DNA of 59,676 nt, from NCBI GenBank assembly GCA_021776115.1, contig JAJFGN010000046.1, forward strand, positions 1-59,676. Reading direction: 5' to 3'. Origin of the DNA: Kiloniellaceae bacterium (GTDB taxonomy: Bacteria; Pseudomonadota; Alphaproteobacteria; Kiloniellales; J153). Below, piece after piece: positions 12,357-25,881 of this stretch. Both the position numbers and the translations under genes were made by a program. Positions within the stretch are counted from its first letter, which is position 1; every line of letters starts with the position of its first letter. The notes under the pieces were generated by a model. That model searched no databases, was not told the DNA's origin, and saw only the letters and a program-made list of their open reading frames with translations.

Positions 12357-13340
12357 TCAGAGCGGCAGGTCCAGCACGACCCGCTTTGGGGCGCCGTCCC
12401 TCAGAATTTCGAGCTTCAGTTGGGCGCCGGGCCGGGCGAGCGCCAGGGCGCCGGTCACGTCGCTGGCCCGCTTCACCGGCCGCTCCGCGACCCTGGAAAC
12501 AATGTCGCCGACACGCAGCCCGGCACCGGCGGCGGCGCTCTTCGGGCTGACGTGGGTTACGCGCGCGCCGACTAGGCGGTTGCGCTCGTCCGCGTCCAGA
12601 TCCGCGACGCGCAGGCCGCTCTCGACCCATCTGACTTGTCCGTGCGCGGCCAGGTCTTCGGCGACCCGGCGCACCAGTGCGATCGAGGCCGCGAAGTTGA
12701 TCCCGATGTCGGCGTCGGACTCCTTGGTGAAGATGGCGGAGAGGATGCCCACCAGCCGGCCCTCGGCGTCGACCAGGGCGCCGCCGGAGACGCCGGGGTT
12801 GGCGCTGGCGTCGGTCTGCACGAAGTCCTCGATCGCGTTGAAGCCGGTGCCCGTGCGGTGCAGGGCCGAAACCACGCCGCAGGTCACCGAAAGCCCGAGC
12901 CCGAACTGGTTGCCGACGGCGCAGACCGGCGCCCCCAGGGCCGGCTCTGGCGCGTCGGGCAAAAGCGGCAAATCGACAGCGGCTTTGAGGAGAGCCAGAT
13001 CGCTCGCGCGGTCGATGCCCGCTAACTCGGCCGCGATGTGGCGGCCGTCGGGCAGGCGCAGAGTGATCGCGGTCGCACGCGCGACCACGTGCAGGGCGGT
13101 GACGAGATAGCCGCCCGGCAGGATCGCAACCGCGGTTCCCTCCGGCGCGCTGCCGGGCGGTACTTGCGGTTGCCCGCCTTGCGCATGGCCCGGCCAAAGC
13201 GGCAGGACGCTGACCACGGAGTCGAGGACATCTGCGCGAAACGCCAGGGCGGCACGATAACCGAAGCCGATTAATCCGAGTGCCAGGACCGCCGTCGCCA
13301 ACAAACGGCAGCAGGACCGTACCCGGCCGCCGCTAGGCAT
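12357..13340 (-). CDS. HtrA/DegP-like trypsin-type serine protease with one PDZ domain
   Basis: A 327-residue exported or membrane-anchored protease. An N-terminal hydrophobic segment is followed by the S1C protease domain: His84 in VTALHVV, Asp114 in ASDLALLK and Ser185 in [10 protein letters not shown] complete the catalytic triad. The family motif is usually NPGNSGG; Asn to Val is a minor change. One PDZ domain ([16 protein letters not shown]) ends the protein. It likely degrades or monitors misfolded envelope proteins. Its start overlaps the yacG stop by eight bases, so it may be the last gene of the infA-maf-rng-yacG run. Confidence 0.9.
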
Positions 13341-13533
13341 CGTCCTCGTTTCCTTGCCCGTTGGCCTCGGTCTCCGGGTCCGGCGTCTCCTCCGTCGGCA
13401 CGCGGTAGGTGCCCTTCAACCAGCGGCCCAGGTCGATATCGGCACAGCGCCGCGAACAGAAGGGGCGGGTTTCGTGCACACTGGGCTTGGCGCAGATGGG
13501 GCAGCGCGGCCCCTGAATTGGCGTTTGGTCCAT
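13333..13533 (-). CDS. yacG: YacG-type zinc-finger DNA gyrase inhibitor
   Basis: A 66-residue cytoplasmic protein with the four-cysteine zinc site CPIC (Cys11, Cys14) and FCSRRC (Cys26, Cys30), followed by the family signature [11 protein letters not shown] and an acidic disordered tail. YacG binds the GyrB C-terminal domain and blocks DNA binding in Escherichia coli. It lies six bases after the RNase E/G gene, in the usual alphaproteobacterial order. Confidence 0.95.
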
Positions 13534-13538
13534 GGCGG

Positions 13539-14729
13539 CTAATCTAGCACGATCTGGAAGCTGTCTTGAGCGGCATCGATTTCGATGTCCAGCACCCGGC
13601 CGAGGCCGGCTTCCAGAATCGCGCGTGCGGCGGCGCAGGGACCCGATAGAGCCGCCGCGACTGGCGGCGCGGCGCGTAGGCCAAGGCGGCGGACCGGCCG
13701 GCCGGTGGCGGCCGCGCGGACCTGACGTAAAGCATCGAAACCTAGCGTCTCGGCGTTTCTGACCCGCCCGCTCCCGCCAAAGCCGCAGGGCTCGGTCAAG
13801 ATCTCGTGCAGGGGCGGCCGCGCGCGGCGGCGCGTCATCTCGACCAGGCCCGAGGGCCGCATGGCTTGGATACGCACCGGGTTCGGGTCGGCGCGAAACC
13901 CTTGCTTTAAGACGTCGGTGACCTTTTGCCGCGCCTTGGGATCGTTAAGGGTGAGGAAATCTATGACGATCAGGCCGGAAAGGTTGCGCAGGCGCGCCTG
14001 TTCGGGGATCGCGGCGGCGGCCTCAAGGTTGACGGCCAAGGCTTGGCCTCCGGCCCCGCCGGCGCCGTGTCCGGCCGCGTTCACGTCGATCGCGGTCAGC
14101 GTGCGTACCGGCTCGACGAGCAAATTGCCGCCAGACGGCAGCGCGGCCTGCGGCCGCAGCAGGGCTTCGATAGCCGCCTCCAGGTCCAGACGCTCGAACA
14201 AGGCCTGGGGCGTGAGGTCGAGCCGCAGCCGCGCCAGAAGCTCCGGCCGCCCGGCAAAGACGGTCTTGGCGCGTGCGTGCCAAGTCTCGTCGTCGATAAC
14301 GATTTCATCGGGGATATCGCCGCTGTCGCGCAACGCGGCCAAGGGATCGGCCGCATCGCGCAGCAAGGCCGGGGGCTCAACGCTTGCCGCAGTTTGGGCC
14401 AGGTCTGGCGGCAGGTCCGTACGCAGAGCGGTGAGGCGTGCACCTTTGTCTTCAAGCGGTTCCCGCTTGACTCGGACGACTAGGCTATCCCCGGCGCTCA
14501 TGCCCCTGGGGCCTTCGGCACGGGGCAGGAACCCGGGACGCGCTTGTCCGATATCGACAAAGGCCGCATCGAGAGATGTATCCAGGCTGGCCACCCGTCC
14601 GAGGTAGAGATTGTCGGCGCAGGCCGGTTTATCGTCACGCTGAATCGCGAGGCCGCGCAGACGGCCGTTATCGAGCCAAGCGGCTCGTACTTCGCCGGGC
14701 ATCGCGCTAATCGCCACTATCCGTGTCAC
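13539..14729 (-). CDS. rng: ribonuclease E/G family protein (short form)
   Basis: A single-strand endoribonuclease of about 396 residues. The frame is open further upstream, but the GTG at 14729 overlaps the maf stop as GTGA and begins the true family N-terminus ([20 protein letters not shown]). An S1-like region follows ([28 protein letters not shown]), then the catalytic DNase I-like core with [18 protein letters not shown]. It is shorter than classical RNase G, as is usual for the copy linked to maf in alphaproteobacteria, and lacks an obvious Zn-link CPxC. It probably processes rRNA or mRNA. Confidence 0.88.
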
Positions 14730-15355
14730 GGCGTTTGGTCCGGCGGCACGTATCCCAGGCCCTCGAGCAGCGCCGCGACTTCTGCTATCGGTAAGCCGAC
14801 CACGTTGGGGTAGGAGCCCCGGATCCATTGGACGAGCGCCCCGGCCCGGCCTTGAATTGCATAACCTCCGGCCTTGCCACGCCATTCCCCGCACCCGAGA
14901 TAGGCGTCGGTTTCGGCCCGGCTAAGGCGCTTAAAGGCGACGACCGTCGTGACCAGGCGTTCGGCCCGGCGTCCGTCCGGGGCGATGACGACGACTCCCC
15001 CCAGAACCCGGTGGCGCCGCCCCGACAATAGAGTCAGGCAGCGCCGGGCACTTTCCACGTCCTCGGCCTTGGGCAGAATTCGACGGCCGACGGCGACTAC
15101 GGTATCGGCGGCCAAGATAAAGGCGCTCGCATGACGCGGCGCGACCGCATCGGCCTTTGCCGCCGCCACGCGCCGGGTGTAGGCGGCGGGCAGCTCTCGT
15201 GGGCGCGGGGACTCATCGATCTCGGCTGGGTCGACCGCCGCCGGCTCGATCCCGATCTGGCGCAGAAGCTCTAGCCGCCGGGGCGAGGCGGATGCTAGCA
15301 CCAAGGGGACCGGGCTGCGTGACAGGCCTGAATCTGAGGCGGCCACCGATGGCAT
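14726..15355 (-). CDS. maf: Maf-family nucleoside triphosphate pyrophosphatase
   Basis: A 209-residue house-cleaning enzyme that hydrolyses non-canonical or unwanted NTPs to NMP and pyrophosphate. The N-terminal LVLASASPRRLELLRQIG is the family signature, followed by ESPRPRELPAAY, ILAADTVV (catalytic Asp) and YAIQGRAGALVQWIRGSYPN. It sits seven bases after infA and overlaps the RNase gene, consistent with co-transcription of infA-maf-rng-yacG. Confidence 0.95.
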   Translation of the reverse strand: MPSVAASDSGLSRSPVPLVLASASPRRLELLRQIGIEPAAVDPAEIDESPRPRELPAAYTRRVAAAKADAVAPRHASAFILAADTVVAVGRRILPKAEDVESARRCLTLLSGRRHRVLGGVVVIAPDGRRAERLVTTVVAFKRLSRAETDAYLGCGEWRGKAGGYAIQGRAGALVQWIRGSYPNVVGLPIAEVAALLEGLGYVPPDQTP

Positions 15356-15362
15356 TCCGGTC

Positions 15363-15581
15363 TTACTTGAAGCGGAAGGTAATACGGCCTTTGGTCAAGT
15401 CGTAGGGCGTCATCTCGACATTGACGCGATCGCCGGCCAGCACGCGAATTCGATGCTTACGCATTTTGCCTGCCGTGTGGGCCAGAACTTCGTGCTCGTT
15501 ATCCAGCTTCACGCGAAACATCGCGTTCGGCAGCAGTTCCATAACCGTGCCTTGAAACTCCAATAGGTCTTCTTTCGCCAT
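15363..15581 (-). CDS. infA: translation initiation factor IF-1
   Basis: A 72-residue OB-fold protein that binds the 30S A site. The sequence starts [20 protein letters not shown] and has [29 protein letters not shown] and [13 protein letters not shown], nearly invariant in the family. First gene of the minus-strand block running to 12357. Confidence 0.98.
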
Positions 15582-16283
15582 TCACTCCTCAAGGTTCGTT
15601 CGCTTCGAACCGCTAACCGTGCCGGCGCCGCCGGCGAGTCTTCATTGTAATAGCTGCTCCCCGCCCTCCGGGGCTCGGGGAAGCGCCGGATCATAGCCAA
15701 ATCGTCCTGCGCCCACAAAGTCTAAACCAGGCGCTAGCACGATGGATCGCCTAACGCCGAAAAGTGTCACGATTCGTTACATTTCATACCCCTATCCAAA
15801 ATCGATAAAGCTTGGCAAATAAATGCTAAGTCATTGATAAATTGAGATTCTTCTTACAAACCGGCACGCACACGTATGTCAGAAACCTTAACAATCTAGG
15901 ATGCAAATCTATATCGGAGAGATGCTAAGTCCCTAAAAATTAAGGAAAAAAATAGTTGGCCCAAGAATTGCTTAATTTTTCGGCAAGGCGCTCGCATCGC
16001 TAAGAATGGGTGCCACAGGAAATATCACGGGGTTGAACAAGCAGTCGCGGGGCGGATCTCCCGAAGCGGCATGGGCTTCATGGGAGTTGCGCGGGCCGCC
16101 GCATAGGCGGGCCGCGGGGCTAAAGTTTTGATAGGAACTCTGGATCGCTTCTACAGTGCTCACACGGACGGTCACACTCCCCGCGTGACCAGACATATGA
16201 GCACGGGTAACTGAGGCGATCCCTTTTTATTCAATGGCCGGGGCGCCAGGCGAGGTCCCGGCCATCGCCAGCGACCCTGGGTG
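15582..16283. other. 702-bp intergenic region with AT-rich patch and strong hairpins
   Basis: No convincing gene. From about 15765 to 15990 the sequence is markedly AT-rich against a GC-rich background. Right after it lie two strong stems: CTCCCGAAGC (16058-16067) with GCTTC-AT-GGGAG (16075-16086), and GCGGGCCGCC (16091-16100) with GGCGGGCCGC (16106-16115), the latter with one mismatch. The infA promoter must lie in its left part. A structured non-coding RNA between about 16000 and 16200 is possible but matches no family I know. Confidence 0.4.
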
Positions 16284-16787
16284 TTATTCGGGCAAGATTA
16301 CGCTAGGTCCCAGCCGCGCGATCAAATCGCGGGCGGAGTAGACCTGAAGGCCGGCCGGGGCCGGCCCATCCAAATAGGTTCGTATGGTCGCGAAGGCCCT
16401 GTAGCTATCCAAGGCATAATAATACGGCGCCTCGTACGCGTAATATGGATAGGTGTGCAATCGCCGGCCGCGGTGCCCGAAGCGATATGGGTAAGGGCCA
16501 AAGGGGCGGTAATCGCGCGTGCGCTCGATTTCCTTCTCGAGGACAATGAATTGCTCGTGATTGCCAAACAGCATGACCTCGGCCGCGCGGTAGAGTAGGT
16601 AGTTTTCCACGGTTTCGCGCGGTGTGTCCGGATTGCCGGCGAACAGCACTCTCCAGGTTTGACTGTCAATCTGCGTTTGAGCATAGCCGAATGCGCCGTC
16701 GCGCGGCATGTAGGGTGTTGGCCGCGCGGCACACGCGGAAAGCAGGAGCGCCGCCAGCAAGCCGACAATAATCGTGCGTCCCTTCAT
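16284..16787 (-). CDS. CC0125/CC1285-family lipoprotein
   Basis: A 167-residue outer- or inner-membrane lipoprotein. The signal peptide ends in lipobox LLSACAA. The mature part contains the family pattern YAQTQIDSQTWRVLFAGNPD followed by TPRETVENYLLYRAAEVML, found in a widespread alphaproteobacterial family named after Caulobacter proteins. A Tyr/Pro/Arg-rich segment (YRPFGPYPYRFGHRG) follows. Function unknown; a periplasmic or surface location is all that can be inferred. Isolated from its neighbours on both sides. Confidence 0.85.
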   Translation of the reverse strand: MKGRTIIVGLLAALLLSACAARPTPYMPRDGAFGYAQTQIDSQTWRVLFAGNPDTPRETVENYLLYRAAEVMLFGNHEQFIVLEKEIERTRDYRPFGPYPYRFGHRGRRLHTYPYYAYEAPYYYALDSYRAFATIRTYLDGPAPAGLQVYSARDLIARLGPSVILPE

Positions 16788-16965
16788 GCTTGTGAGATAA
16801 GCACAGCGGCGGCTCCAGGCAAGCGTTCCTGCGGGGCAAGTGCAACCAGACGCGAAATACCGGTCAAATGATTCAATATCAACGGATCATGCTCTAGTGG
16901 CAAACTCACCGCCTTTCGGCTACCTTGAATACGCGTAAGGTCGCTATAGGGGAGGCGGTGTTTCC

Positions 16966-17811
16966 ATGACCATGAAAACCATCCTTGTGCCGTTGGAAGA
17001 CAGCGGCGCGGCCACCGCGATGCTTCGCACGGCGTGGCTGGTGGCGCAGAGATTCGCCGGCACGATTGAGGCGCTTTACGTGCGCCGCTCCCTGCCCGGG
17101 GTCGTCGTTGCCGATATCGGCGGATATGCGGCGGCGACGCCCGACCTCATGCAAAGTTTCGAGCAGGAAGATCAGCAGCGCGCCAGCCAGGTTCATGCGG
17201 TGTTTGACGCCTTCGTGCGCGAGTGCGGCGTGGCGGAGGGCGGAGCTACGGACGCAGTTTGGACGGAGGTCGGCGAACCGGGCGATCAAGCCGTGGGCAT
17301 GTACGCACGCGTGTTCGACATGACGGTTGTCGGCCGGCCGGTCGCGGGCCAAAGCGTCCCGGCCATGAGTACCTTGGAATCCGTTCTCTTCGAGAGCGGC
17401 CGGCCGATTCTGATCGCACCGCCCACGCCGCCGGCAAGCTTGGGCGATACGATCGTTATCCACTGGAACGGTAGCACCGAAACGGCGCGTGCCGTAGCCT
17501 TTGCCCAACCCTTCTTGATGCAGGCAAAAAGGGTCGTTGTTGTTTCCGTGGAAGGGGTGATGGTGCCTGGTCCGAACGCGGGGGCGATGGCGAAATACCT
17601 CAAGCACAACGGGATCTCTGCTCAGTTGCGTGAGTTACCCGCGGATAGCGGTGGCGGCGGGGCCGCGGTACTGGCCGAAGCGAAATCTCTCGGCGCGGAC
17701 CTCCTGGTAAAAGGCGCCTATACGCACAGCCGCTTGCGGCAAATGATTTTCGGCGGCGCGACCTCCCACATCCTGGCTACGGCTGAAATTCCAGTCCTGA
17801 TGGCTCACTAA
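16966..17811 (+). CDS. universal stress protein (UspA family)
   Basis: A 281-residue cytoplasmic protein, twice the size of one Usp domain, so probably two tandem domains. The N-terminus MKTILVPLEDSGAATAMLRT is a Usp strand-loop-helix. The C-terminal half ends with the ATP-binding pattern GAYTHSRLRQMIFGGATSHI (G-x-x-x-x-S...G-G-x-T) and the final strand EIPVLMAH. Such proteins are induced by starvation or respiratory stress. Single gene. Confidence 0.92.
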   Translation: MTMKTILVPLEDSGAATAMLRTAWLVAQRFAGTIEALYVRRSLPGVVVADIGGYAAATPDLMQSFEQEDQQRASQVHAVFDAFVRECGVAEGGATDAVWTEVGEPGDQAVGMYARVFDMTVVGRPVAGQSVPAMSTLESVLFESGRPILIAPPTPPASLGDTIVIHWNGSTETARAVAFAQPFLMQAKRVVVVSVEGVMVPGPNAGAMAKYLKHNGISAQLRELPADSGGGGAAVLAEAKSLGADLLVKGAYTHSRLRQMIFGGATSHILATAEIPVLMAH

Positions 17812-17886
17812 GGCGATTGCGCACCCGCACCTTGCCGTTAGTTTCTTGTTAAGGAACTCGGTTACCGCCCGGCAAGGTTAATCGCC
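17812..17886 (+). terminator. nested stem-loop after the Usp gene
   Basis: Two nested inverted repeats follow the stop codon: GGCGATT (17812-17818) with AATCGCC (17880-17886), and inside it CCTTGCC (17830-17836) with GGCAAGG (17871-17877). The RNA would fold into one long stem. No strong T-run follows, so it may be a factor-dependent terminator or a structured leader for the operon starting at 18041. Confidence 0.4.
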
Positions 17887-18040
17887 TGTTTACCTAGACC
17901 CTCCATAGTTGACTGTCGCCCTCACACGGTATCTTTCCGGTGGAGTTGGGTATCGTGAAGAGTGGGCTTGAGAGACACAAGAATCGTCTGAGCTTGCAGT
18001 CATGGCTCCGCGGTTCTCGCAACACAGGAGCGGATAGCCG

Positions 18041-18817
18041 ATGGCGATTCCAGTTGTGGCTTCGGAAATGGAGCAAGCTTCACGCAATCCGGCGGTCACG
18101 CGCGACAGATCCGGCCCGGCCGCTGAAGCGGACCCAAGCGATTCCCAACGTCTTGCCTGGCTCGCGAACAGATCGGCGGGAGGACAAGCCGCCCAGTTTC
18201 ACTATGTGCTGGTCCTGCGATTCGCCTTAATCAACGTCGTCGGCTTCGCGCTACTTGGCGCCGCCTACGTTCAAGGATTGGTCGAGCTCGTGTTTGTCTC
18301 CGACCAAACCTATTTGAGCGTTGTCATCTCGCTCGTATTTCTGGGCGGTTTGGCTATCTGTGGCGCCAAGGTATGGAACACGAGCCGCGAGCTAAATCAG
18401 ATCAAATCCTTTGATCCGCTTGTGCGATCCAAAGCCTCGGCTTATCTGGCCAAGATCCGCGGCCACAACGGCGATAGCCGGGGTATCCTCGCGGCCGCCC
18501 TGCGTCTGAAGTTGACGCAGCGTATCGCGATCGTGCGCAACGTTGCGGCCAGTCTCGTGCTGTTGGGCCTGATTGGAACCGTGGTCGGTTTCATTATCGC
18601 GTTATCCGGTGTCAAGCCGGATCAGGCTGCCGATGTTAAGGCGATCACGCCAATGGTATCGACTCTTATCGCGGGGATGTCGACGGCGCTATACACCACC
18701 TTGGTCGGCTCGGTCCTTAATGTGTGGCTCATGGCCAACTACCAACTCCTGGTTGGCGGCACTGTCAAACTCATCTCAGGGCTTTTGGAGTTCGGGGAGG
18801 AAAATGCACCCGCTTGA
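18041..18817 (+). CDS. MotA/TolQ/ExbB-like proton-channel protein
   Basis: A 258-residue inner-membrane protein and the first gene of a three-gene overlapping module. A hydrophilic head of about 55 residues precedes three or four TM spans. The two signature helices of ion-driven motor stators are visible: LGLIGTVVGFIIAL (residues 175-188), the counterpart of TolQ/ExbB LGLLGTVWGI, and GMSTALYTTLVGSV (212-225), the counterpart of the pore-lining TM3 with its conserved threonine/small residues. A GGAG site precedes the ATG. The partner with an ExbD-like aspartate is encoded next. It is not MotA (no PomA/MotA cytoplasmic charge pattern seen) and there are no TonB/Tol genes nearby. Confidence 0.85.
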   Translation: MAIPVVASEMEQASRNPAVTRDRSGPAAEADPSDSQRLAWLANRSAGGQAAQFHYVLVLRFALINVVGFALLGAAYVQGLVELVFVSDQTYLSVVISLVFLGGLAICGAKVWNTSRELNQIKSFDPLVRSKASAYLAKIRGHNGDSRGILAAALRLKLTQRIAIVRNVAASLVLLGLIGTVVGFIIALSGVKPDQAADVKAITPMVSTLIAGMSTALYTTLVGSVLNVWLMANYQLLVGGTVKLISGLLEFGEENAPA

Positions 18818-19409
18818 CGATCTAGACGACGACGGCACCAACACGGTTTTCAGGGACGTCATATTCCTGGCCTTGGCCGGTTTTGTGGCCATGGTTCTGT
18901 TGCTGCTGCCGCACCTGAACCCGCCGGCGACCGCACATGAAGGAATGCCCGCGCCGGGCAACGTGATCGTCGAGCTCAGTTGGTCGGAGAAAGTTGACGC
19001 CGATGTCGACCTTTGGGTTCAAGCGCCGGGCGATGTACCGGTCGGCTATTCCAACAAGGGCGGTGTGCTGTTCAATCTTCTGCGCGACGATCTGGGTGGG
19101 CAGTCCGATGTGACCAACGTCAACTACGAAGTTTCATACAGCCGGGGAATCGAGGCCGGTGAGTATGTTGTCAATGTTCACCTGTACCGCGATATGTCCA
19201 ACCAACTGCCGCTTCCCGTAGCGGTTTCAGTTAGCGTCAAGACATCGCCCCAGGTTGCGGCCAAGCGAATCCTCAACACCAAGCTTCTCATGAGCCATCA
19301 GGGTCAGGAAACCACTGCGTTCCGCTTTGAGCTCCAGGCCGACGGCAAATTGGTCTCGGGAAGCGTTCACGATCTTCCCAAGCCTTTGCGCTCGCGGAAG
19401 AAGTCCTGA
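18804..19409 (+). CDS. one-TM ExbD/MotB-position partner with DUF2135-like periplasmic domain
   Basis: A 201-residue protein whose ATG (18804) follows a perfect GGGGAGG and overlaps the channel gene by 14 bases. The single TM span reads FRDVIFLALAGFVAMVLLLL, with Asp18 at the same place as the proton-carrying aspartate of ExbD/TolR (FIDVMLVLL). The periplasmic part is not an ExbD domain: VELSWSEKVDADVDLWVQAP, VGYSNKGGVLFN and EAGEYVVNVHLYRD resemble the DUF2135/YfaP beta-sandwich fold. This pairing of motor plug and carbohydrate-binding-like sandwich is unusual. The assignment to the motor family is inference from the TM motif and gene position. Confidence 0.75.
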   Translation: MHPLDDLDDDGTNTVFRDVIFLALAGFVAMVLLLLPHLNPPATAHEGMPAPGNVIVELSWSEKVDADVDLWVQAPGDVPVGYSNKGGVLFNLLRDDLGGQSDVTNVNYEVSYSRGIEAGEYVVNVHLYRDMSNQLPLPVAVSVSVKTSPQVAAKRILNTKLLMSHQGQETTAFRFELQADGKLVSGSVHDLPKPLRSRKKS

Positions 19410-19930
19410 TGAATGAGCTTCTGGTACTCTTCGGCGTTTTGGGCGGTCTCGCTGCGCTCTTGACCACGGTGGCGTTGTGGGCGCCGCGGCGAATTTGGAT
19501 CAAGCTCAGTGCGCTAGGTGTCACGGTGGTTTTCTTGCCGGCCGGATATTTTGGATTGTCGGAAATGCTGAGCCGGCCAAAACCGGTTGGACTGGAACTT
19601 GCGCGCACGGATTTGGCCGAGGCGACGGTCCTGGGCGCGCGCATGGAAGAAGACAAGGCGATCTACCTATGGCTTGGGATCCCTGGAGTAGAGGAGCCTC
19701 GTGCCTATGCCTTGCCTTGGAATGAGCAACTCGCCCGCCAATTACAAGGTGCGGAGAGAGAATCCCAGGATACGGGAACGCCGGTCCAGATGCGCAAACC
19801 GTTTGAAGATTCTTTGGACGATCGCGAGAAGGTTTTTTATGCCGCACCGCCGCCACCACCAGCGGAAAAAGCGCAGCCAAGCGAAAATCCACTGAACTTT
19901 CAGGGTACGCAAGGGGCACCCAGAAACTAA
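19409..19930 (+). CDS. third membrane subunit of the motor-like module (unknown family)
   Basis: A 173-residue protein whose ATG shares one base with the preceding stop (TGATG). Two N-terminal TM spans (ELLVLFGVLGGLAALLTTVA and IWIKLSALGVTVVFLPAGYF) lead to a periplasmic or cytoplasmic domain with AIYLWLGIPGVEEPRAYALP and a proline-rich, probably extended tail (APPPPPAEK). No known family is recognised. Strict coupling to the two preceding genes suggests a subunit of the same complex; the tail could span periplasm or bind a partner. Confidence 0.7.
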   Translation: MNELLVLFGVLGGLAALLTTVALWAPRRIWIKLSALGVTVVFLPAGYFGLSEMLSRPKPVGLELARTDLAEATVLGARMEEDKAIYLWLGIPGVEEPRAYALPWNEQLARQLQGAERESQDTGTPVQMRKPFEDSLDDREKVFYAAPPPPPAEKAQPSENPLNFQGTQGAPRN

Positions 19931-20029
19931 CCTAGGGTCCCGGCCGCGGACTTTACCTGGCATGGCAGCCGTGGCAAGAAGCCGGGCTATGCAACTCACC
20001 AGAATGCCCTATCAGGCGTCGGTCCGGCC

Positions 20030-21589
20030 GTGAAAGCGCGGGGCGCGGTCGCCGCCGGGCACCCGGCCACCGCCGCCGCGGCGCAGGAGATCCTGGCCGA
20101 CGGCGGCAACGCGTTCGACGCGGCCCTGGCGGCCGTTTGTGCTGCTTGCGCGGTGGAACCGGTCCTATGCTCGCTGGGTGGGGGCGGGTTCTTGCTCGCG
20201 CGCCGCGCGGAAGGAGCCGCGGCCCTATACGACTTCTTCGTAGACACACCCCGGACTCGCCGCCCGCTAGGTGACATAGATTTCTACCCCATCGAGGCTG
20301 ATTTCGGCACCGCGACTCAGGAATTCCATATTGGCCAGGGCGCGATCGCGACGCCGGGCTTGGTCAAGGGCTTGTTTCGAGTGCACAGCGATCTGGGCAG
20401 CCTGCCTATGACCCGTCTGATCGAGCCGGCTGTTCGGCTCGCGCGGGGGGGCGTTACCTTGCGCGGTATCGACGCCTATCTGTTCCAAGTGGTGGGGTCG
20501 ATCCTGACCGCGCAGCCTGAGTCTCGGACCCACTATTGCAACGCGGATGGCCGTTTGCTCGTTGAGGGCGAGGTATTGTCGCTTCCGGACCTCGCGGATA
20601 CCCTGGAGGCCTTGGCGCGAGAGGGCGATGCCTTGTTCTACGAGGGCGAGATCGCGCAACGCTTGCTTGAAGACTGTGTCACCAAGGGCGGTCACCTGAC
20701 CGCAGAGGATCTGAGCGCTTACCGTGTCGCGTTACGCGTGCCTCTGGAACGTTCCTATCGCGATACCCGTGTGTTTCTCAATCCGCCGCCCTCGTCGGGT
20801 GGAATTCTGATCGCGTTCGCGCTGGCCTTATTGGCCGCGCCGGATTCAGCCGGCGATAAGCAAGGCGAGGCCGAGCGGCTCGCGCGCTTGGCGGATGTCA
20901 TGGCGCTGACGAACCGGGCACGAGTTGAAGGCGGCCTGGAAGAAGCGCTTGCCGATTCGTCTCGAGATGCGGCGGCGGACCTGTTGGATCCGGCGTTGCT
21001 GACGCGGTATGCCAGCGAGATCAAGGATCGGCCCGCTGCGATGCGCGGCACGACCCACATCTCCGTGGTCGACGCCGAGGGCAACGTCGCGGCGCTCAGC
21101 GTGTCCAACGGCGAGGGATGCGGCCATGTCGTGCCTGGCACCGGGATCATGATGAACAACATGCTGGGCGAGGCGGACCTGAATCCCTCTGGATTTCATG
21201 CCTGGCGCGAGGGGCAGCGCATGACATCCATGATGTGCCCCAGCATTGCAGAGGGCGCCAGGGGCTCTGTCATAGCTCTGGGATCCGGCGGATCGAACAG
21301 GATACGAACGGCGATTCTTCAGGTTCTGGTTAATCTCTTAGATAGAAACCTGCCCTTGGCCGAGGCTATTGCGGCGCCGCGTCTGCACGTTGAAGCCGGC
21401 ACGGCCAGCCTGGAGGAGGGTTATAGCGCGGAGGCCTTGGCGGTCCTTGAGGGGCGTGGCGGGGAAATCGCGGTGTGGCCGCGCCACAATCTATTTTTCG
21501 GGGGCGTTCACGCGGCGATCCGAAATGCGGATGGCGGATTTGACGCCGTCGGCGACTCGCGACGCGGCGGCAGCAGATGCATTGTCTAG
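20030..21589 (+). CDS. ggt: gamma-glutamyltransferase
   Basis: A 519-residue Ntn-hydrolase that cleaves the gamma-glutamyl bond of glutathione and related compounds. The N-terminal large-subunit pattern AAGHPATAAAAQEILADGGN and FDAALAA is typical. The self-cleavage site and nucleophile are Thr341 in RGTTHISVVD, opening the small subunit, with GTGIMMNNML and the GSGGSNRI oxyanion region later. No signal peptide is evident from the GTG start at 20030; an upstream in-frame start was not found, so the protein may be cytoplasmic or the start may be mis-set. A hairpin terminator follows. Confidence 0.93.
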   Translation: MKARGAVAAGHPATAAAAQEILADGGNAFDAALAAVCAACAVEPVLCSLGGGGFLLARRAEGAAALYDFFVDTPRTRRPLGDIDFYPIEADFGTATQEFHIGQGAIATPGLVKGLFRVHSDLGSLPMTRLIEPAVRLARGGVTLRGIDAYLFQVVGSILTAQPESRTHYCNADGRLLVEGEVLSLPDLADTLEALAREGDALFYEGEIAQRLLEDCVTKGGHLTAEDLSAYRVALRVPLERSYRDTRVFLNPPPSSGGILIAFALALLAAPDSAGDKQGEAERLARLADVMALTNRARVEGGLEEALADSSRDAAADLLDPALLTRYASEIKDRPAAMRGTTHISVVDAEGNVAALSVSNGEGCGHVVPGTGIMMNNMLGEADLNPSGFHAWREGQRMTSMMCPSIAEGARGSVIALGSGGSNRIRTAILQVLVNLLDRNLPLAEAIAAPRLHVEAGTASLEEGYSAEALAVLEGRGGEIAVWPRHNLFFGGVHAAIRNADGGFDAVGDSRRGGSRCIV

Positions 21590-21612
21590 TATGGTGGGAT
21601 AGGCAAACAAAC

Positions 21613-21645
21613 CGCGCCAGTCCGGAGGAGGAACCGGACGGCGCG
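21613..21645. terminator. shared terminator hairpin between ggt and gcrA
   Basis: CGCGCC-A-GTCCGG and CCGGAC-GGCGCG form a near-perfect GC-rich stem around GAGGAGGAA. It lies between two convergent stops (21589 and 21719). On the minus strand GGTTTGTTTG follows, a weak T-rich tail, so it most likely ends the gcrA transcript and may serve both genes. Confidence 0.6.
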
Positions 21646-21718
21646 ATCTATCCCCCCGAAAGCGCACTAAACGGCAGGCTCGATAGAGGACGCGGTAGAG
21701 GCCGCTAGCGCGGGATCT

Positions 21719-22162
21719 TTACGCGGCGCGATCTTCGCCGCGTGCGGGGCGCGTGATATAGGCGCGGGCGCAATGATCCGCGCAATAGGGCTTGCCTTCG
21801 ATCGCTCGCGCGTCGCAAAAATGGAATTCGGATTGCCGGGGATCGCCAATTGGCCAAAGGCATTTGGCGCCCCGATGGTCTTTGCTGACCGCGGGCCGTG
21901 GCTCGGGCGTCGGCTCGATAATCGGCGCCGCGACGGCGGGAATCGACTGGTCGACTGGCTTGGTCAGGATCGGAAGGCGGCGGCGCGACGGTGCCCGGCG
22001 TTCCTGACGGATTGGCGAGGGCCGCGAAGCGAGGCGCATGCGGTGGGCCTTGCCGACGACGGCGTTTTTTGAGACCCCAAGAATGCGTCCGATTGCCGAC
22101 GCGCTTTGTCCAGATTCCCACAGCCGCGCCAGTTCGGTGATTCGCTCGTCAGTCCAAGTCAT
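21719..22162 (-). CDS. gcrA: GcrA cell-cycle regulator
   Basis: A 147-residue alphaproteobacterial transcription factor. The N-terminal helix-turn-helix begins MTWTDERITELARLWESGQS followed by ASAIGRILGVSKNAVVGKAH, the family signature. A proline-rich linker leads to the C-terminal sigma70-interacting domain with CLWPIGDP and FCDARAIEGKPYCADHCARA. In Caulobacter GcrA binds sigma70 and responds to GANTC methylation by CcrM. The start at 22162 is chosen over 22225 because the family begins with this methionine. Strong taxonomic marker. Confidence 0.95.
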   Translation of the reverse strand: MTWTDERITELARLWESGQSASAIGRILGVSKNAVVGKAHRMRLASRPSPIRQERRAPSRRRLPILTKPVDQSIPAVAAPIIEPTPEPRPAVSKDHRGAKCLWPIGDPRQSEFHFCDARAIEGKPYCADHCARAYITRPARGEDRAA

Positions 22163-22405
22163 GTGTTTGCCCCCAAATACAGCACTAGATATAGGTGTAT
22201 ACCATATATGTTGCGGGGATTGCAACTATGCCGTCTATATGCTGTGGGTATTTGTCACGCGGTTCTTGGAGCCTAAATGAAGCCTAAAGAGAGGCCATCC
22301 TGCTGTGTCCGGTATCCTGGCCGGCACTCGGGACTCGACGCGACTGTGAGGTTGCGATAGGACATCGTCGCTACATCCGGTACGCAGCCCTATAGGCTCA
22401 GCATA

Positions 22406-22948
22406 TTGAAACACTTAGTAACCCGTGGCGTGATCCTGGGTATCGTGGCGATGACGATCATCGTCACCGCCTCGAACGTCGCCGTGCAGTACCCGATCAA
22501 CGATTGGCTGACCTGGGGCGCTCTGACGTATCCGATTTCATTCCTGGTCACCGACCTGACTAACCGCGCTTTGGGCGCCAAGGCCGCGCGCCAGGTCGTC
22601 TACGCCGGTTTCGCTGTGGCAGTGGTCTTGTCGGTTGCGGCTGCCGGTCCGCGCATCGCGGCCGCCTCAGGCCTTGCCTTCCTTCTGGCGCAACTCTTGG
22701 ACATCGCGATCTTCGATCGCCTGCGTCGCGCGGTCTGGTGGCACGCGCCCTTCGTCTCCTCGATTCTCGCCTCGGCCCTCGATACGGCCCTGTTCTTCGC
22801 GCTGGCTTTCGCGGGGTCCGGCTTACCCTGGACCACATGGGCCTTGGGCGACTACGGCGCCAAACTGGCCATGGCCATGGCCATGCTGGTTCCGTTCCGG
22901 GCTCTGATGAACTGGATACGCCCGGACACCCTCGACCTGAGGGTCTGA
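22406..22948 (+). CDS. queuosine precursor transporter (YhhQ/DUF165 family)
   Basis: A 180-residue membrane protein with about six spans. Family marks are ASNVAVQYPI, TYPISFLVTDLTNRALG near the first third, and SSILASALDTALFFALAF later. YhhQ imports preQ0/preQ1 for queuosine tRNA modification. The longest frame begins with TTG at 22406, with no strong ribosome binding site; a downstream GTG or ATG start is possible. The end is only 19 bases from a convergent cytochrome gene. Confidence 0.9.
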   Translation: MKHLVTRGVILGIVAMTIIVTASNVAVQYPINDWLTWGALTYPISFLVTDLTNRALGAKAARQVVYAGFAVAVVLSVAAAGPRIAAASGLAFLLAQLLDIAIFDRLRRAVWWHAPFVSSILASALDTALFFALAFAGSGLPWTTWALGDYGAKLAMAMAMLVPFRALMNWIRPDTLDLRV

Positions 22949-22967
22949 TCACGCGCGGCGCGGGCGC

Positions 22968-23294
22968 TTATTTTCGTTGAAGACTTCGCAGGTACGCGAC
23001 GATCCAGTCGACTTCGTCGCGGCTCAAGTGCAGGTCCGGCATCGGCGGATGGGGATCCGCTAGCCAGGCCCGGATGCTGTCTTCAGTAAAGTTCGGGCCG
23101 TTGGCGATCGACTCGAAAGGAGGCGCCGCATCGCTGCCCGATTGCCCTGGAGCGACGATATGGCAACTCGAGCACCATTGTTTTGCTAGGCGGTAGCCGT
23201 CTTGCGGATCGGCGGCACGTGCGGCACCGGCCACCGCGAAAAAACAGATCGCCACGGCAATGGCGGCCATGGCCGGTTCAGCAGGTTTCCGCAT
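22968..23294 (-). CDS. class I c-type cytochrome
   Basis: A 108-residue periplasmic electron carrier: signal peptide AMAAIAVAICFFAVAGAARA, heme motif CSSCH (Cys41, Cys44, His45) and likely distal ligand Met85 in PPMPDLHLS. The C-terminal helix VDWIVAYLRSLQ is standard. GAGGTG precedes the ATG at 23294; a second start at 23270 would still leave a signal peptide. No oxidase or dehydrogenase partner is next to it. Confidence 0.92.
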   Translation of the reverse strand: MRKPAEPAMAAIAVAICFFAVAGAARAADPQDGYRLAKQWCSSCHIVAPGQSGSDAAPPFESIANGPNFTEDSIRAWLADPHPPMPDLHLSRDEVDWIVAYLRSLQRK

Positions 23295-23403
23295 TCGGCA
23301 CCTCGCGATCCAGGTCGTGCAAAATCTGCCGTGTCAGCTCTTCTTGCTCACCGCCGGACAGGTTCCGCGAGTGCAGGATCGGTTGCTCCGGATCGAACCG
23401 CAT
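23278..23403 (-). CDS. possible 41-residue small protein overlapping cytochrome start
   Basis: A minus-strand frame from ATG at 23403 reads MRFDPEQPILHSRNLSGGEQ and ends with TGA inside the first codons of the cytochrome gene (17-base overlap). It is acidic and predicted helical, with no known family. The overlap would allow translational coupling, but the ribosome binding site is weak. Confidence 0.3.
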   Translation of the reverse strand: MRFDPEQPILHSRNLSGGEQEELTRQILHDLDREVPNAETC

Positions 23404-23556
23404 TGATTTGGGTCAAGGTCGATCCGGGCCCCAAGTATTTTCCTGCTCTTGCCGGGTGGCGAATTGCTCTTCGATCTGCGATCCTAGAGTCGATACGGAG
23501 CATGCACGTTGCGCATTTTGGGTGAACCGTATCGACGCCTAAACTGGAGACCGATC

Positions 23557-24048
23557 ATGCGAATCGTCATCGAGCAATCCGAGTTTCGCCGCCTTTCCGC
23601 CGGCACGAAACGAGAAATCATTGAGACTCTGGCTGGGAGCGGTTTCCTGACCCCGCCAGCACCCGAAAAGAAGCGCGAGAACCTGCTCTGGAAGGAGCCG
23701 TTCAACCTCACGCCGGATCTCGCGACGCGGCTCATGCACGGCTTACCCGAACACCATCGCGTGCGCCTGGAACTCTTCGCTAAGAAGGGCGGGCGCGTGA
23801 CCCAGAAAGAGCTGTTGGCCGCGACCGAGGACGCCGACATGAGGGTCCTATCGCATTTTCAGGCGGTGCTCAGCCGGCGCCTGCGCCGCATGATCCACGA
23901 CCCGGAAAAGCGGCTTCACCTGATTGGCTGGGACTTCAAGGCGACCAAGTGGAACAAGGACCACTCGGCGATTGAGGACGGCATCTACTACGTGACGGAC
24001 GCGACGACGGCCGCCTTGCGCGATAATTTTGGGCTGAAGAGCCGGTAA
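23557..24048 (+). CDS. conserved hypothetical protein
   Basis: A 163-residue soluble protein starting MRIVIEQSEFRRLSAGTKRE after a GGAGA site; the frame is open 16 codons further upstream but without a ribosome binding site. The mid-part LPEHHRVRLELFAKKGGRVT and QKELLAATEDADMRVLSHFQ looks like a winged-helix or DNA-binding helix pair with a basic segment (SRRLRRMIHD). No family is recognised. No TM or signal peptide. Monocistronic and convergent with mlaC. Confidence 0.7.
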   Translation: MRIVIEQSEFRRLSAGTKREIIETLAGSGFLTPPAPEKKRENLLWKEPFNLTPDLATRLMHGLPEHHRVRLELFAKKGGRVTQKELLAATEDADMRVLSHFQAVLSRRLRRMIHDPEKRLHLIGWDFKATKWNKDHSAIEDGIYYVTDATTAALRDNFGLKSR

Positions 24049-24061
24049 AAAACCCGGCCGG

Positions 24062-24838
24062 TTATTTTCCAGCGACGAAGATGTCCAGCCGGCTGGCGTT
24101 CGGCGATGTCAGGATGCTGCCCAACAGGGACGCATGAGACGGCCGGCCGTTCTGCAGGTCGGTTGTCTTGGCCTGAGCCTCCAGTTTGTCGCGCAACATC
24201 TTCAGCAGGCCTTCAAGCCCGACCCGGTTGACGACCGAGGCAAATTCCCGGCGCTGTGTCAGGGCCAAACTGACCCCGTCGACCGTGACGTCGATAATCT
24301 TGTATTGGCCGTCAACGGCGCGCACACGCCAAACCGGCGCCGCTTGGCCGTCGGCTCCGCTGACGTTGGTCTCAACCAGGATATCGTCCTCGCCGACCGG
24401 GTTACTGGCGACGACGCTGAGCGTATCGGCCTGAAAGGAGGCCAGATGGCGCGCGTAGCTGTTCAGGAGATACTCGGTGAAGAGGTCCATGAATTCTGTG
24501 CGCTGGTCCACGCTGGCGCGGTTCCAATACTTACCCAGGACAAACTGGCTGGTCAGCTCCAGGTCGAAACCCTGCCTCACCAGCTTGCGCAAGAGGGCGC
24601 GACGCTGAGCGGGTTTCTGCGCCTTCTTCGATGCCAGGACGTTGGCCGTCTGCTGGCCCAGGTCCTGAACCATGCGTGCTGCAGCTTGCGGCGGATCCGC
24701 GGAGGCCGGGTAGACTTCTAGCCGTGGGTCGGCGGCCATGGCACCAGTGGCCGTAAAGCTGGCGCCTAGGCCAAGCCCGCAGGCGACGGCGACGGCCATC
24801 AATCTTTTTCTACTTGGCCTAGAAGCCCAGTCCCGCAT
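24062..24838 (-). CDS. MlaC-type phospholipid-binding periplasmic protein
   Basis: A periplasmic shuttle of the Mla lipid-asymmetry pathway. After a signal peptide (LMAVAVACGLGLGASFTATG then AMA) comes the Ttg2D/MlaC domain: RALLRKLVRQGFDLELTSQF, VLGKYWNRASVDQRTEFMDL and FTEYLLNSYARHLASF, then the beta-rich lipid pocket with VWRVRAVDGQYKIIDVTVDG. The start at 24838 is favoured over 24886 because the added 16 residues precede the signal peptide. Lacks the mlaD/E/F genes beside it, so it is an orphan in this window. Confidence 0.88.
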   Translation of the reverse strand: MRDWASRPSRKRLMAVAVACGLGLGASFTATGAMAADPRLEVYPASADPPQAAARMVQDLGQQTANVLASKKAQKPAQRRALLRKLVRQGFDLELTSQFVLGKYWNRASVDQRTEFMDLFTEYLLNSYARHLASFQADTLSVVASNPVGEDDILVETNVSGADGQAAPVWRVRAVDGQYKIIDVTVDGVSLALTQRREFASVVNRVGLEGLLKMLRDKLEAQAKTTDLQNGRPSHASLLGSILTSPNASRLDIFVAGK

Positions 24839-25257
24839 CACACTTTTTCTCCGCACATTCGTCCGACTTTTATTAGTACGGCGCAAATGGGGCCAACGTT
24901 CCCGCTTTGCCTGTCTTGCCGGTTGCTGTCATATGACCACACAAAAGTTAACGGACCATTTCAGGATGCTAGGCTTTCTGCGGGTTTGAGGCCGCTCCAA
25001 TTTTAACAAAAATTGTCTCGTAGTTAATTTCGGCCCGATTTTATTGTCGGTGCCGAAGGCCAAGCCCTTGGCTTTGCGAGTGGTTTTTGGCGGTTAGGAA
25101 ATTATTGGTTAATCCGCCATAGCCGCACCATGGGGGCACGGCTACCGGTCTTTGGCGCGTGTCCTTTCTGTGACAAGCGCCCAGCGGGATGATCGGCGCT
25201 CCTTGGAATTAGTCCGGCGGGCGCATCTTGGCACGGCGCCTGCATAAAATTGTAGCG
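24839..25257. other. intergenic region, no gene seen
   Basis: About 420 bases between divergent mlaC and the transglycosylase gene. Parts (24960-25110) are T/A-rich, consistent with promoters for both sides. No conserved frame or RNA family was recognised. Confidence 0.5.
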
Positions 25258-25881
25258 ATGCAGATACGCACAACATCTTCGATCGTGTGGATACTCACTG
25301 TTGCCCTAGCATGGTTGGCAGGGCCGCCGCCGGCCAGTGCCGGCGGCACGCTGTCTCCATGGGGCCTTTGCGCCAAGTATGCGGCGTTGGCCGAGCGGAA
25401 CCACCGCTTGCCGGGGGGCTTGCTGCGCGCTATCGCGAAGGTGGAGACCGGTCGTTTCCGGGATTTACCGGGAGGGGCCGGAGGGGAAGTTCTTGCCTGG
25501 CCTTGGACCGTGATGGCCGAGGGGCGGGGGCGATATCTGCCCAATAAGGGGGCGGCTATTGCCGAGGTTGAAGCCCTACAGGCGCGCGGTGTCCGCAACA
25601 TCGATGTTGGCTGTATGCAGATCAACCTGCGATACCACCCGGATGCCTTCGACAACCTGGAGGCTGCTTTCGACCCGGCCACGAATGTCGAGGCCGCCGC
25701 CCGCCTTTTGGTCACCCTGAAGGATAGCTGGGGTTCCTGGACCCGTGCGGTCGGGAACTACCACTCGAATACCCCGACCCTGAGCGGCCCTTACCGGGTC
25801 AAGGTTTACCGCACCCTCTTCAACGATCGCCGGCGCGCCGCGCAAGCGGAGAGGCGGGATCGCAAACCTCCGCGGACTTAA
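25258..25881 (+). CDS. lytic transglycosylase (SLT-domain protein)
   Basis: A 207-residue secreted peptidoglycan-cleaving enzyme. ATG at 25258 begins a clear signal peptide (SSIVWILTVALAWLAG... ASAGG); a TTG start ten codons earlier is less likely. The SLT fold shows LPGGLLRAIAKVETGRF with the catalytic glutamate (KVETG), DVGCMQINLRYHPDAF (GxMQIN motif) and AVGNYHSNTP. The stop codon TAA is the first three bases of a 37-bp palindrome. Confidence 0.9.
   Translation: MQIRTTSSIVWILTVALAWLAGPPPASAGGTLSPWGLCAKYAALAERNHRLPGGLLRAIAKVETGRFRDLPGGAGGEVLAWPWTVMAEGRGRYLPNKGAAIAEVEALQARGVRNIDVGCMQINLRYHPDAFDNLEAAFDPATNVEAAARLLVTLKDSWGSWTRAVGNYHSNTPTLSGPYRVKVYRTLFNDRRRAAQAERRDRKPPRT

Follow-up and report, generated by a model that had tools for sequence, protein, structure and literature searches.

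The window analyzed here, i.e., the whole 59,676-nucleotide stretch of contig JAJFGN010000046.1 from a Kiloniellaceae bacterium, carries three overlapping genes for membrane proteins (P1, P2, and P3; Table 1). Our check of open reading frames and sequence bore out the three frames of the original prediction, together with their coordinates, the 14-base P1/P2 overlap, and the TGATG that joins P2 to P3. The motifs LGLIGTVVGFI and GMSTALYTTLVGS in P1 and FRDVIFLALAG in P2 were likewise found as quoted. The P1/P2 overlap may couple translation of the two genes. Relative to the nearest relative, a Kiloniellaceae metagenome-assembled genome (L164) whose P2 is 93% identical to that of the window, dN/dS values were 0.22 for P1, 0.07 for P2, and 0.13 for P3; thus, all three genes encode constrained proteins.

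Table 1. Features of the window and gene designations of the trio in four phages
Feature	Position	Strand	Description
P1	18041..18817	+	ATG 18041 to TGA 18817; 258 aa; MotA/TolQ/ExbB-family membrane protein
P2	18804..19409	+	ATG 18804; 201 aa; one membrane helix with Asp18, predicted TerD-like beta-sandwich
P3	19409..19930	+	ATG 19409; 173 aa; two membrane helices, predicted small folded domain, proline-rich tail
P1 end/P2 start overlap, 14 bases	18804..18817	+	Same overlap in 58 of 79 named bacterial loci, with start codons picked by script
P2 Asp18 codon, proposed ion carrier	18855..18857	+	Position counted from P2 start
Trio of phage 16-3			p038, p040, p042
Trio of phage RHph_I1_9			EVC04_146-148
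Trio of phage RL2RES			gp110-112
Trio of phage RHph_N3_19			EVB99_065-067

The flanks of the trio are ordinary, with a universal stress protein upstream and a gamma-glutamyltransferase downstream. A Pfam scan (E <= 0.001) of ten chosen neighboring frames (12360-25881) agreed with the claim that no TonB, TolA, OmpA, or zorC/zorD partner lies nearby, and it identified neither ZorC/ZorD/ZorE-type effector genes nor flagellar families among the frames scanned. The neighborhood includes an MlaC-family protein (24065-24886, minus strand) and, about 5 kb from the trio, a protease with Trypsin_2 and PDZ domains (12360-13340, minus strand). Trypsin_2 is common beside the phage trio described below and recurs in at most 10 of 80 bacterial loci; therefore, this neighbor is probably a coincidence. 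Elsewhere, the genome holds four PF01618 matches besides P1. A TolQ-type gene is followed by TolR-like and TolA-like frames and a MotA-type gene by a MotB-like frame, the companion frames being read by eye. The contig of the TolQ-type gene also encodes a 396-aa MotA/ExbB-type protein, followed by another membrane-protein frame (L005 1132-2319, contig C49).

Sequence families and predicted folds of the three proteins

P1 belongs to the stator A-subunit family, as originally predicted. It matches PF01618 (MotA_ExbB) at 3.9e-9 (36.8 bits; cut-off, 22.9), and so do 55 of the 64 rows of its alignment at E <= 0.01; these rows comprise the window, 11 of 62 bacterial sequences, and 52 of 54 viral ones. 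The P1 profile matched solved chains of ZorA (8vvn, the best match, 9e-9; 8qyd, 3.1e-8), MotA (3.7e-8), and, more weakly, PomA (1e-4) and TolQ (3.2e-4), and it barely reached ExbB (0.094). Chain 8vvn is a ZorA according to PMC11890865. PADLOC ZorA models matched P1 weakly (1.7e-6). Thr or Ser occupies position 220 in 63 of the 64 aligned rows. At position 180, 50 rows have Thr, 13 have Asn, and 1 has Met, with Asn counted in 13 of the 52 viral rows. We take positions 180 and 220 to correspond to ExbB positions that presumably face the Asp of the partner subunit. P1 stops 38 residues past Thr220 and therefore lacks a long cytoplasmic tail. Its sequence makes P1 a candidate pentameric A subunit.

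The single membrane helix of P2 carries Asp18, which is conserved in 98 of the 99 sequences of the P2 alignment (the window, 40 of 43 nonredundant bacterial rows, and 58 of 59 viral ones, L122 being short and omitted). Trp60, Asp67, Asp69, Asp95, and Glu109 show no substitution in any of the 99. An AF2 single-chain model from this alignment (mean pLDDT, 89.3) places a helix at 10-38 ahead of eight strands. The prediction of one Asp-bearing helix followed by neither ExbD nor OmpA stood: no ExbD/TolR domain (Pfam or NCBIfam) and no OmpA-like peptidoglycan-binding domain (Pfam) matched at E <= 10. More generally, searches of Pfam, NCBIfam, and PADLOC left P2 of the window without any match at E <= 10, and PHROGs offered rows at chance level only. 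The companion claim of a DUF2135-like head fared less well. At E <= 0.1, PF09906 matched 16 of the 99 sequences (best, 0.0034), the window P2 not among them. TerD-titled rows headed the structural comparison of the model (3ibz, Z 10.6, rmsd 3.7, 136 aligned; 2qz7, 9.1; 2kxt, 8.0), interspersed with 2qng (9.2; function unknown), 9a6r (8.7), and 7jtk (8.1) and followed by a row at 6.2, on a scale where models without a clear match typically peak at Z 7 to 8 and where a common fold shows no function. Foldseek returned nothing from the PDB at E <= 0.001, and BFVD gave two unnamed rows within that threshold and a tellurium-resistance-like row at 0.0039; by sequence, the TerD family matched a single one of the 99 rows (E 0.081). 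The DUF2135 lead was thus near the mark yet weak, and TerD appears to be the better label for the modeled fold of the head. Two subtilisin-like proteases returned by the P2 profile from PDB sequences (0.027-0.032) were judged weak and set aside. When the P2 helix was compared with a TolR-like frame by hhalign, both Asp residues aligned (23 columns, 35% identity), at an E of 0.0063 for this single comparison yet a probability of only 6%. P2 is a candidate dimeric B subunit.

P3 had been described as a novel two-helix protein with a proline-rich tail. This held, to which a small folded domain is now to be added. Its AF2 single-chain model (mean pLDDT, 90.7) has helices at 2-24 and 29-53, three strands, a helix, and two short strands. 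None of four libraries yielded a credible match for P3 of the window (nothing at E <= 10 in Pfam, NCBIfam, and PADLOC; chance-level rows in PHROGs), Foldseek found nothing in the PDB at E <= 0.001, and a profile search of PDB sequences gave one row at E 1. The OB-type chains recovered with the small domain (Z up to 6.7) lie within the chance range. P3 is weakly conserved, with zero invariant columns in an 83-row alignment (the window and 82 of 127 nonredundant rows). In 82 of the 83 rows, the segment linking its two helices carries a net positive charge, and its N terminus is almost devoid of K or R, a charge pattern that probably places the small domain and the proline-rich tail in the periplasm. 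We regard P3 as a candidate third subunit.

Distribution in bacteria and phages

P2 relatives were detected by a single-sequence search in 22 of 61 genomes of the order. A profile search of the phylum recovered them in 24 of 398 genomes; 8 of these matches were weak and lay in frames of 272-1150 aa, and none of the four such loci examined (L160-L163) had an adjoining P1 or P3. Named genomes yielded 286 candidate stretches, of which 263 encode a P2 relative. The best 80 of these 263 loci include Kiloniellaceae, Tistrella, Azospirillum, Skermanella, Denitrobaculum, and Pelagibius, as well as the gammaproteobacterial Granulosicoccaceae and Chromatiales. Within this set, the order P1-P2-P3 is kept in 79 loci, the exception starting at a contig end, and both junctions span at most 60 bases in 77. 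The triplet is therefore conserved far outside this genome, contrary to the refuting condition set in the original prediction, a triplet confined to it. Its range is also wider than the alphaproteobacteria of the survey called for at the outset, since the trio occurs in gammaproteobacteria and phages as well. No conserved fourth gene emerged from the 80 bacterial loci. A generic cluster of ABC-type ATPases (Walker-type motif in 39 of 43 members) occurs in 28 of them, scattered and on both strands, and the next clusters reach 10 loci; other clusters common to more than 10 of the 80 lie mostly within the three genes, either as those genes themselves or as antisense or shadow frames.

Retention is high in two families with small genomes. 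P2 was found in 15 of 18 genomes of a family of 0.9-1.4 Mb (6/6 of those at least 90% complete) and in 29 of 32 genomes of a family of 0.9-2.0 Mb (5/5 of those at least 90% complete), in each case with one match per genome, and all 30 loci examined from the two families carry P1, P2, and P3. A third family had P2 in 9 of 61 genomes. That the trio might replace Tol was considered and dropped: the Kiloniellaceae genome has its own Tol-type cluster (by eye), and 20 of the 32 genomes in the 0.9-2.0 Mb family have a PF01618 match of at least 116 bits. The other small-genome family (G108) has, unlike this one, no PF01618 match at 116 bits or more, and most of its genomes show three matches, i.e., an adjacent pair (about 106 and 80 bits) and P1. 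Seven Azospirillum plasmid records each have two P2-matching places, and P2 relatives also sit on contigs labeled Parcubacteria and Gemmatimonadaceae (L217 and L227), which are possibly misbinned.

In tblastn searches, P1 of the window alone reached no phage, and phage A subunits were reached only via P2, which matched 27 phage records, all from Rhizobium or Sinorhizobium, with the GenBank and RefSeq versions of a phage taken as two. The trio is present in 9/9 Rhizobium/Sinorhizobium phage records examined, where the genes are annotated as hypothetical or, in phage 16-3, by number only; phages L059-L062 were part of the alignments behind the trio HMMs and match by construction. PHROGs returned chance-level rows for nine phage proteins of the P1, P2, and P3 types (best, 0.021). 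In IMG/VR, a P2 relative is encoded in 262 of 272 stretches, and among the best 80 of these 262 loci, all three genes lie near each other in 70 and in the same order in 68; this set contains phage 16-3 itself (L115, with the length and coordinates of L059), and some of its contigs may be bacterial, e.g., L064, which groups with bacterial rows on the P2 tree. Departures from the common order include a P3-type match upstream of P2 in two viral loci (L088 and L091) and the order P1-P3-P2 in locus L038.

The P2 tree points to a history crossing the phage-bacterium boundary. Phage and bacterial labels need 7 changes against 27.7 when shuffled, at least 3 being forced by well-supported branches, in a tree of 83 chosen rows built by a quick method in which misplaced IMG/VR contigs would add changes. 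We take these changes as a likely trace of old exchange between phages and hosts. Spearman correlations of pairwise distances among viral loci were 0.62 for P1-P2 (n=54), 0.64 for P2-P3 (n=56), and 0.48 for P1-P3 (n=53), a measure that cannot tell joint function from common ancestry. Distances of a downstream phosphoesterase-like gene did not track those of P2 (0.03, n=14). The correlation with P2 was about as high for an upstream phage protease (0.59, n=15) as for P1, and therefore co-inheritance does not single out the trio in phages.

A putative ion-driven envelope machine

Known 5:2 motors offer the closest parallel to the trio. A B gene directly behind the A gene is a feature of other stators according to PMC12505986, and the trio shares this arrangement, as well as one helix with a conserved Asp and polar Thr/Ser residues in the A subunit. 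PF01618 and the PDB profile matches relate P1 to MotAB and PomAB, from which the trio differs in that P2 has no OmpA match and the scanned neighbors hold no flagellar family. The head of P2 resembles TerD in predicted fold, and weak DUF2135 matches occur in some P2 rows, whereas its fusion to an Asp helix beside a MotA/ExbB-type gene sets it apart from both. TerD is normally cytoplasmic. Judged by outer domains and defining partners, the trio is not ExbBD, TolQR, MotAB, or Zorya. We consider it probable, with moderate confidence, that the trio is a three-subunit envelope machine and a branch of the 5:2 ion-driven motors common to bacteria and tailed phages. Several observations weigh against this reading. 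A search with P2 as single sequence left the majority of the genomes sampled from the class unmatched (59/385 match), and gene context points to no single function. Neither P2 nor P3 had a Foldseek match in the PDB at E <= 0.001, the hhalign probability of the P2-TolR helix alignment is low, and conservation of P3 is poor.

In such a machine, P1 would form a pentameric ring in the inner membrane, with two P2 helices sitting within it. Ions would pass between Asp18 of P2 and the polar residues Thr180 and Thr220 of P1, so that ring and axle turn against each other. The periplasmic TerD-like head with its invariant acidic residues might serve as anchor or output, possibly via bound calcium. P3 would be anchored in the membrane as the third subunit, its two termini facing outward, and would use its small domain and proline-rich tail either to link the motor to the outer membrane or the cell wall or to gate it. 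In bacteria, the trio may be kept to maintain the envelope, and the copies borne by tailed phages may act on the envelope of the host as it is infected. Some P1 copies of phages are very short (113-148 aa in six isolates), and this, together with the Asn found at position 180 in part of the viral rows, means that the copies need not all conduct ions alike.

Phage gene context brings to mind a lysis or envelope-weakening accessory, retained by some bacteria, that would act on the outer membrane or wall shortly before lysis. Of 58 nonredundant viral loci, 46 have 5 kb of sequence upstream of the trio and 44 have 5 kb downstream. A lysozyme- or GH19-type cluster occurs in 15 of these upstream stretches and in 1 of the downstream ones. 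Within 2.5 kb upstream, 22 of the 46 loci have a trypsin-like protease or a small protein with a signal-like start, holin-like and signal-like labels on single frames being assigned by eye unless a Pfam match is cited. Representatives matched Phage_lysozyme (1.5e-39) and Trypsin_2 (8.7e-20) above the Pfam cut-off and GH19 (0.00042) and Rz1-like proteins (0.00031) below it. However, two Pootjesviridae records have the trio among replication genes (gyrase, late sigma, sliding clamp, and SbcCD-type genes) rather than lysis genes, which weakens the idea of a role in lysis only. Holin action would collapse the energy source of the motor, and it would be odd for a lysis gene to persist in almost every genome of two bacterial families with small genomes; we thus hold this explanation to be unlikely. 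The kinship of P1 with ZorA, its best PDB match, and carriage by temperate and large phages, as exclusion genes may be, would suit an antiphage or superinfection-exclusion device analogous to Zorya that senses envelope disturbance and blocks incoming phages. ZorAB combines a B subunit bearing a conserved Asp with a 5:2 assembly, as described in PMC11890865. The trio departs from Zorya in the missing ZorA-like cytoplasmic tail of P1, the missing OmpA match of P2, a membrane protein as third gene, and its occurrence in phages themselves. Neither a ZorC/D/E-type effector among the ten scanned frames of the window nor a conserved fourth gene in bacterial loci accompanies it, and its core-like retention in small genomes is unlike that of defense islands, all of which makes an exclusion role unlikely.

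An ion-gated sensor or channel would dispense with rotation, the P1 ring acting as a pore regulated by P3 and by a ligand of the P2 head, perhaps calcium. The TerD-like fold fits, as the title of TerD entry 2kxt names calcium-binding properties, and so does the invariance of Asp67, Asp69, Asp95, and Glu109. Nonetheless, we give a channel little chance, because the Asp helix and the Thr positions match the torque-generating sites of relatives, none of which, to our knowledge, acts as a plain channel. Still less probable is a divergent ExbBD or TolQR system with P3 in place of TonB or TolA. TolQ-TolR-TolA and ExbB-ExbD-TonB share with the trio a three-gene logic, an Asp helix (in TolR) with which that of P2 can be aligned Asp to Asp, and a proline-rich tail in the third protein, which in P3 is probably periplasmic. 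In those systems, however, the third protein has a single helix, whereas P3 has two and a folded domain and matches neither TonB nor TolA (Pfam, NCBIfam); the head of P2 is a predicted TerD-like sandwich with no ExbD/TolR match, and the genome has a separate Tol-type cluster (by eye).

Returning to the three-subunit motor, its broadest form is one that we advance tentatively and would not yet rate an even bet: tailed phages may encode a complete ion-driven rotary motor, with a TerD-like head and a two-helix third subunit, that was exchanged with bacteria in deep time, became core to some small-genome lineages, and works the host envelope from inside. No account of the trio, or of a stator carried by phages, came up in the open-access literature, which lacks most subscription papers and preprints; this is not proof of novelty. 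If the proposal is true, a branch whose output domain and third subunit are both new would be added to the 5:2 motors, and phages would be able to tap the membrane energy of the host through a machine of their own. A virus-borne ion-driven motor would then be open to study in the classic laboratory phage 16-3, and the shortest phage P1 copies would help define the minimal A subunit. Among other isolates, phage TM3_3_14B has a gene annotated as a Seg-like homing endonuclease between P1 and P2 (L062 5243-6001), and phage NV1.1.1 has a similar frame, annotated as hypothetical, between the same two genes (L061 5270-6007).
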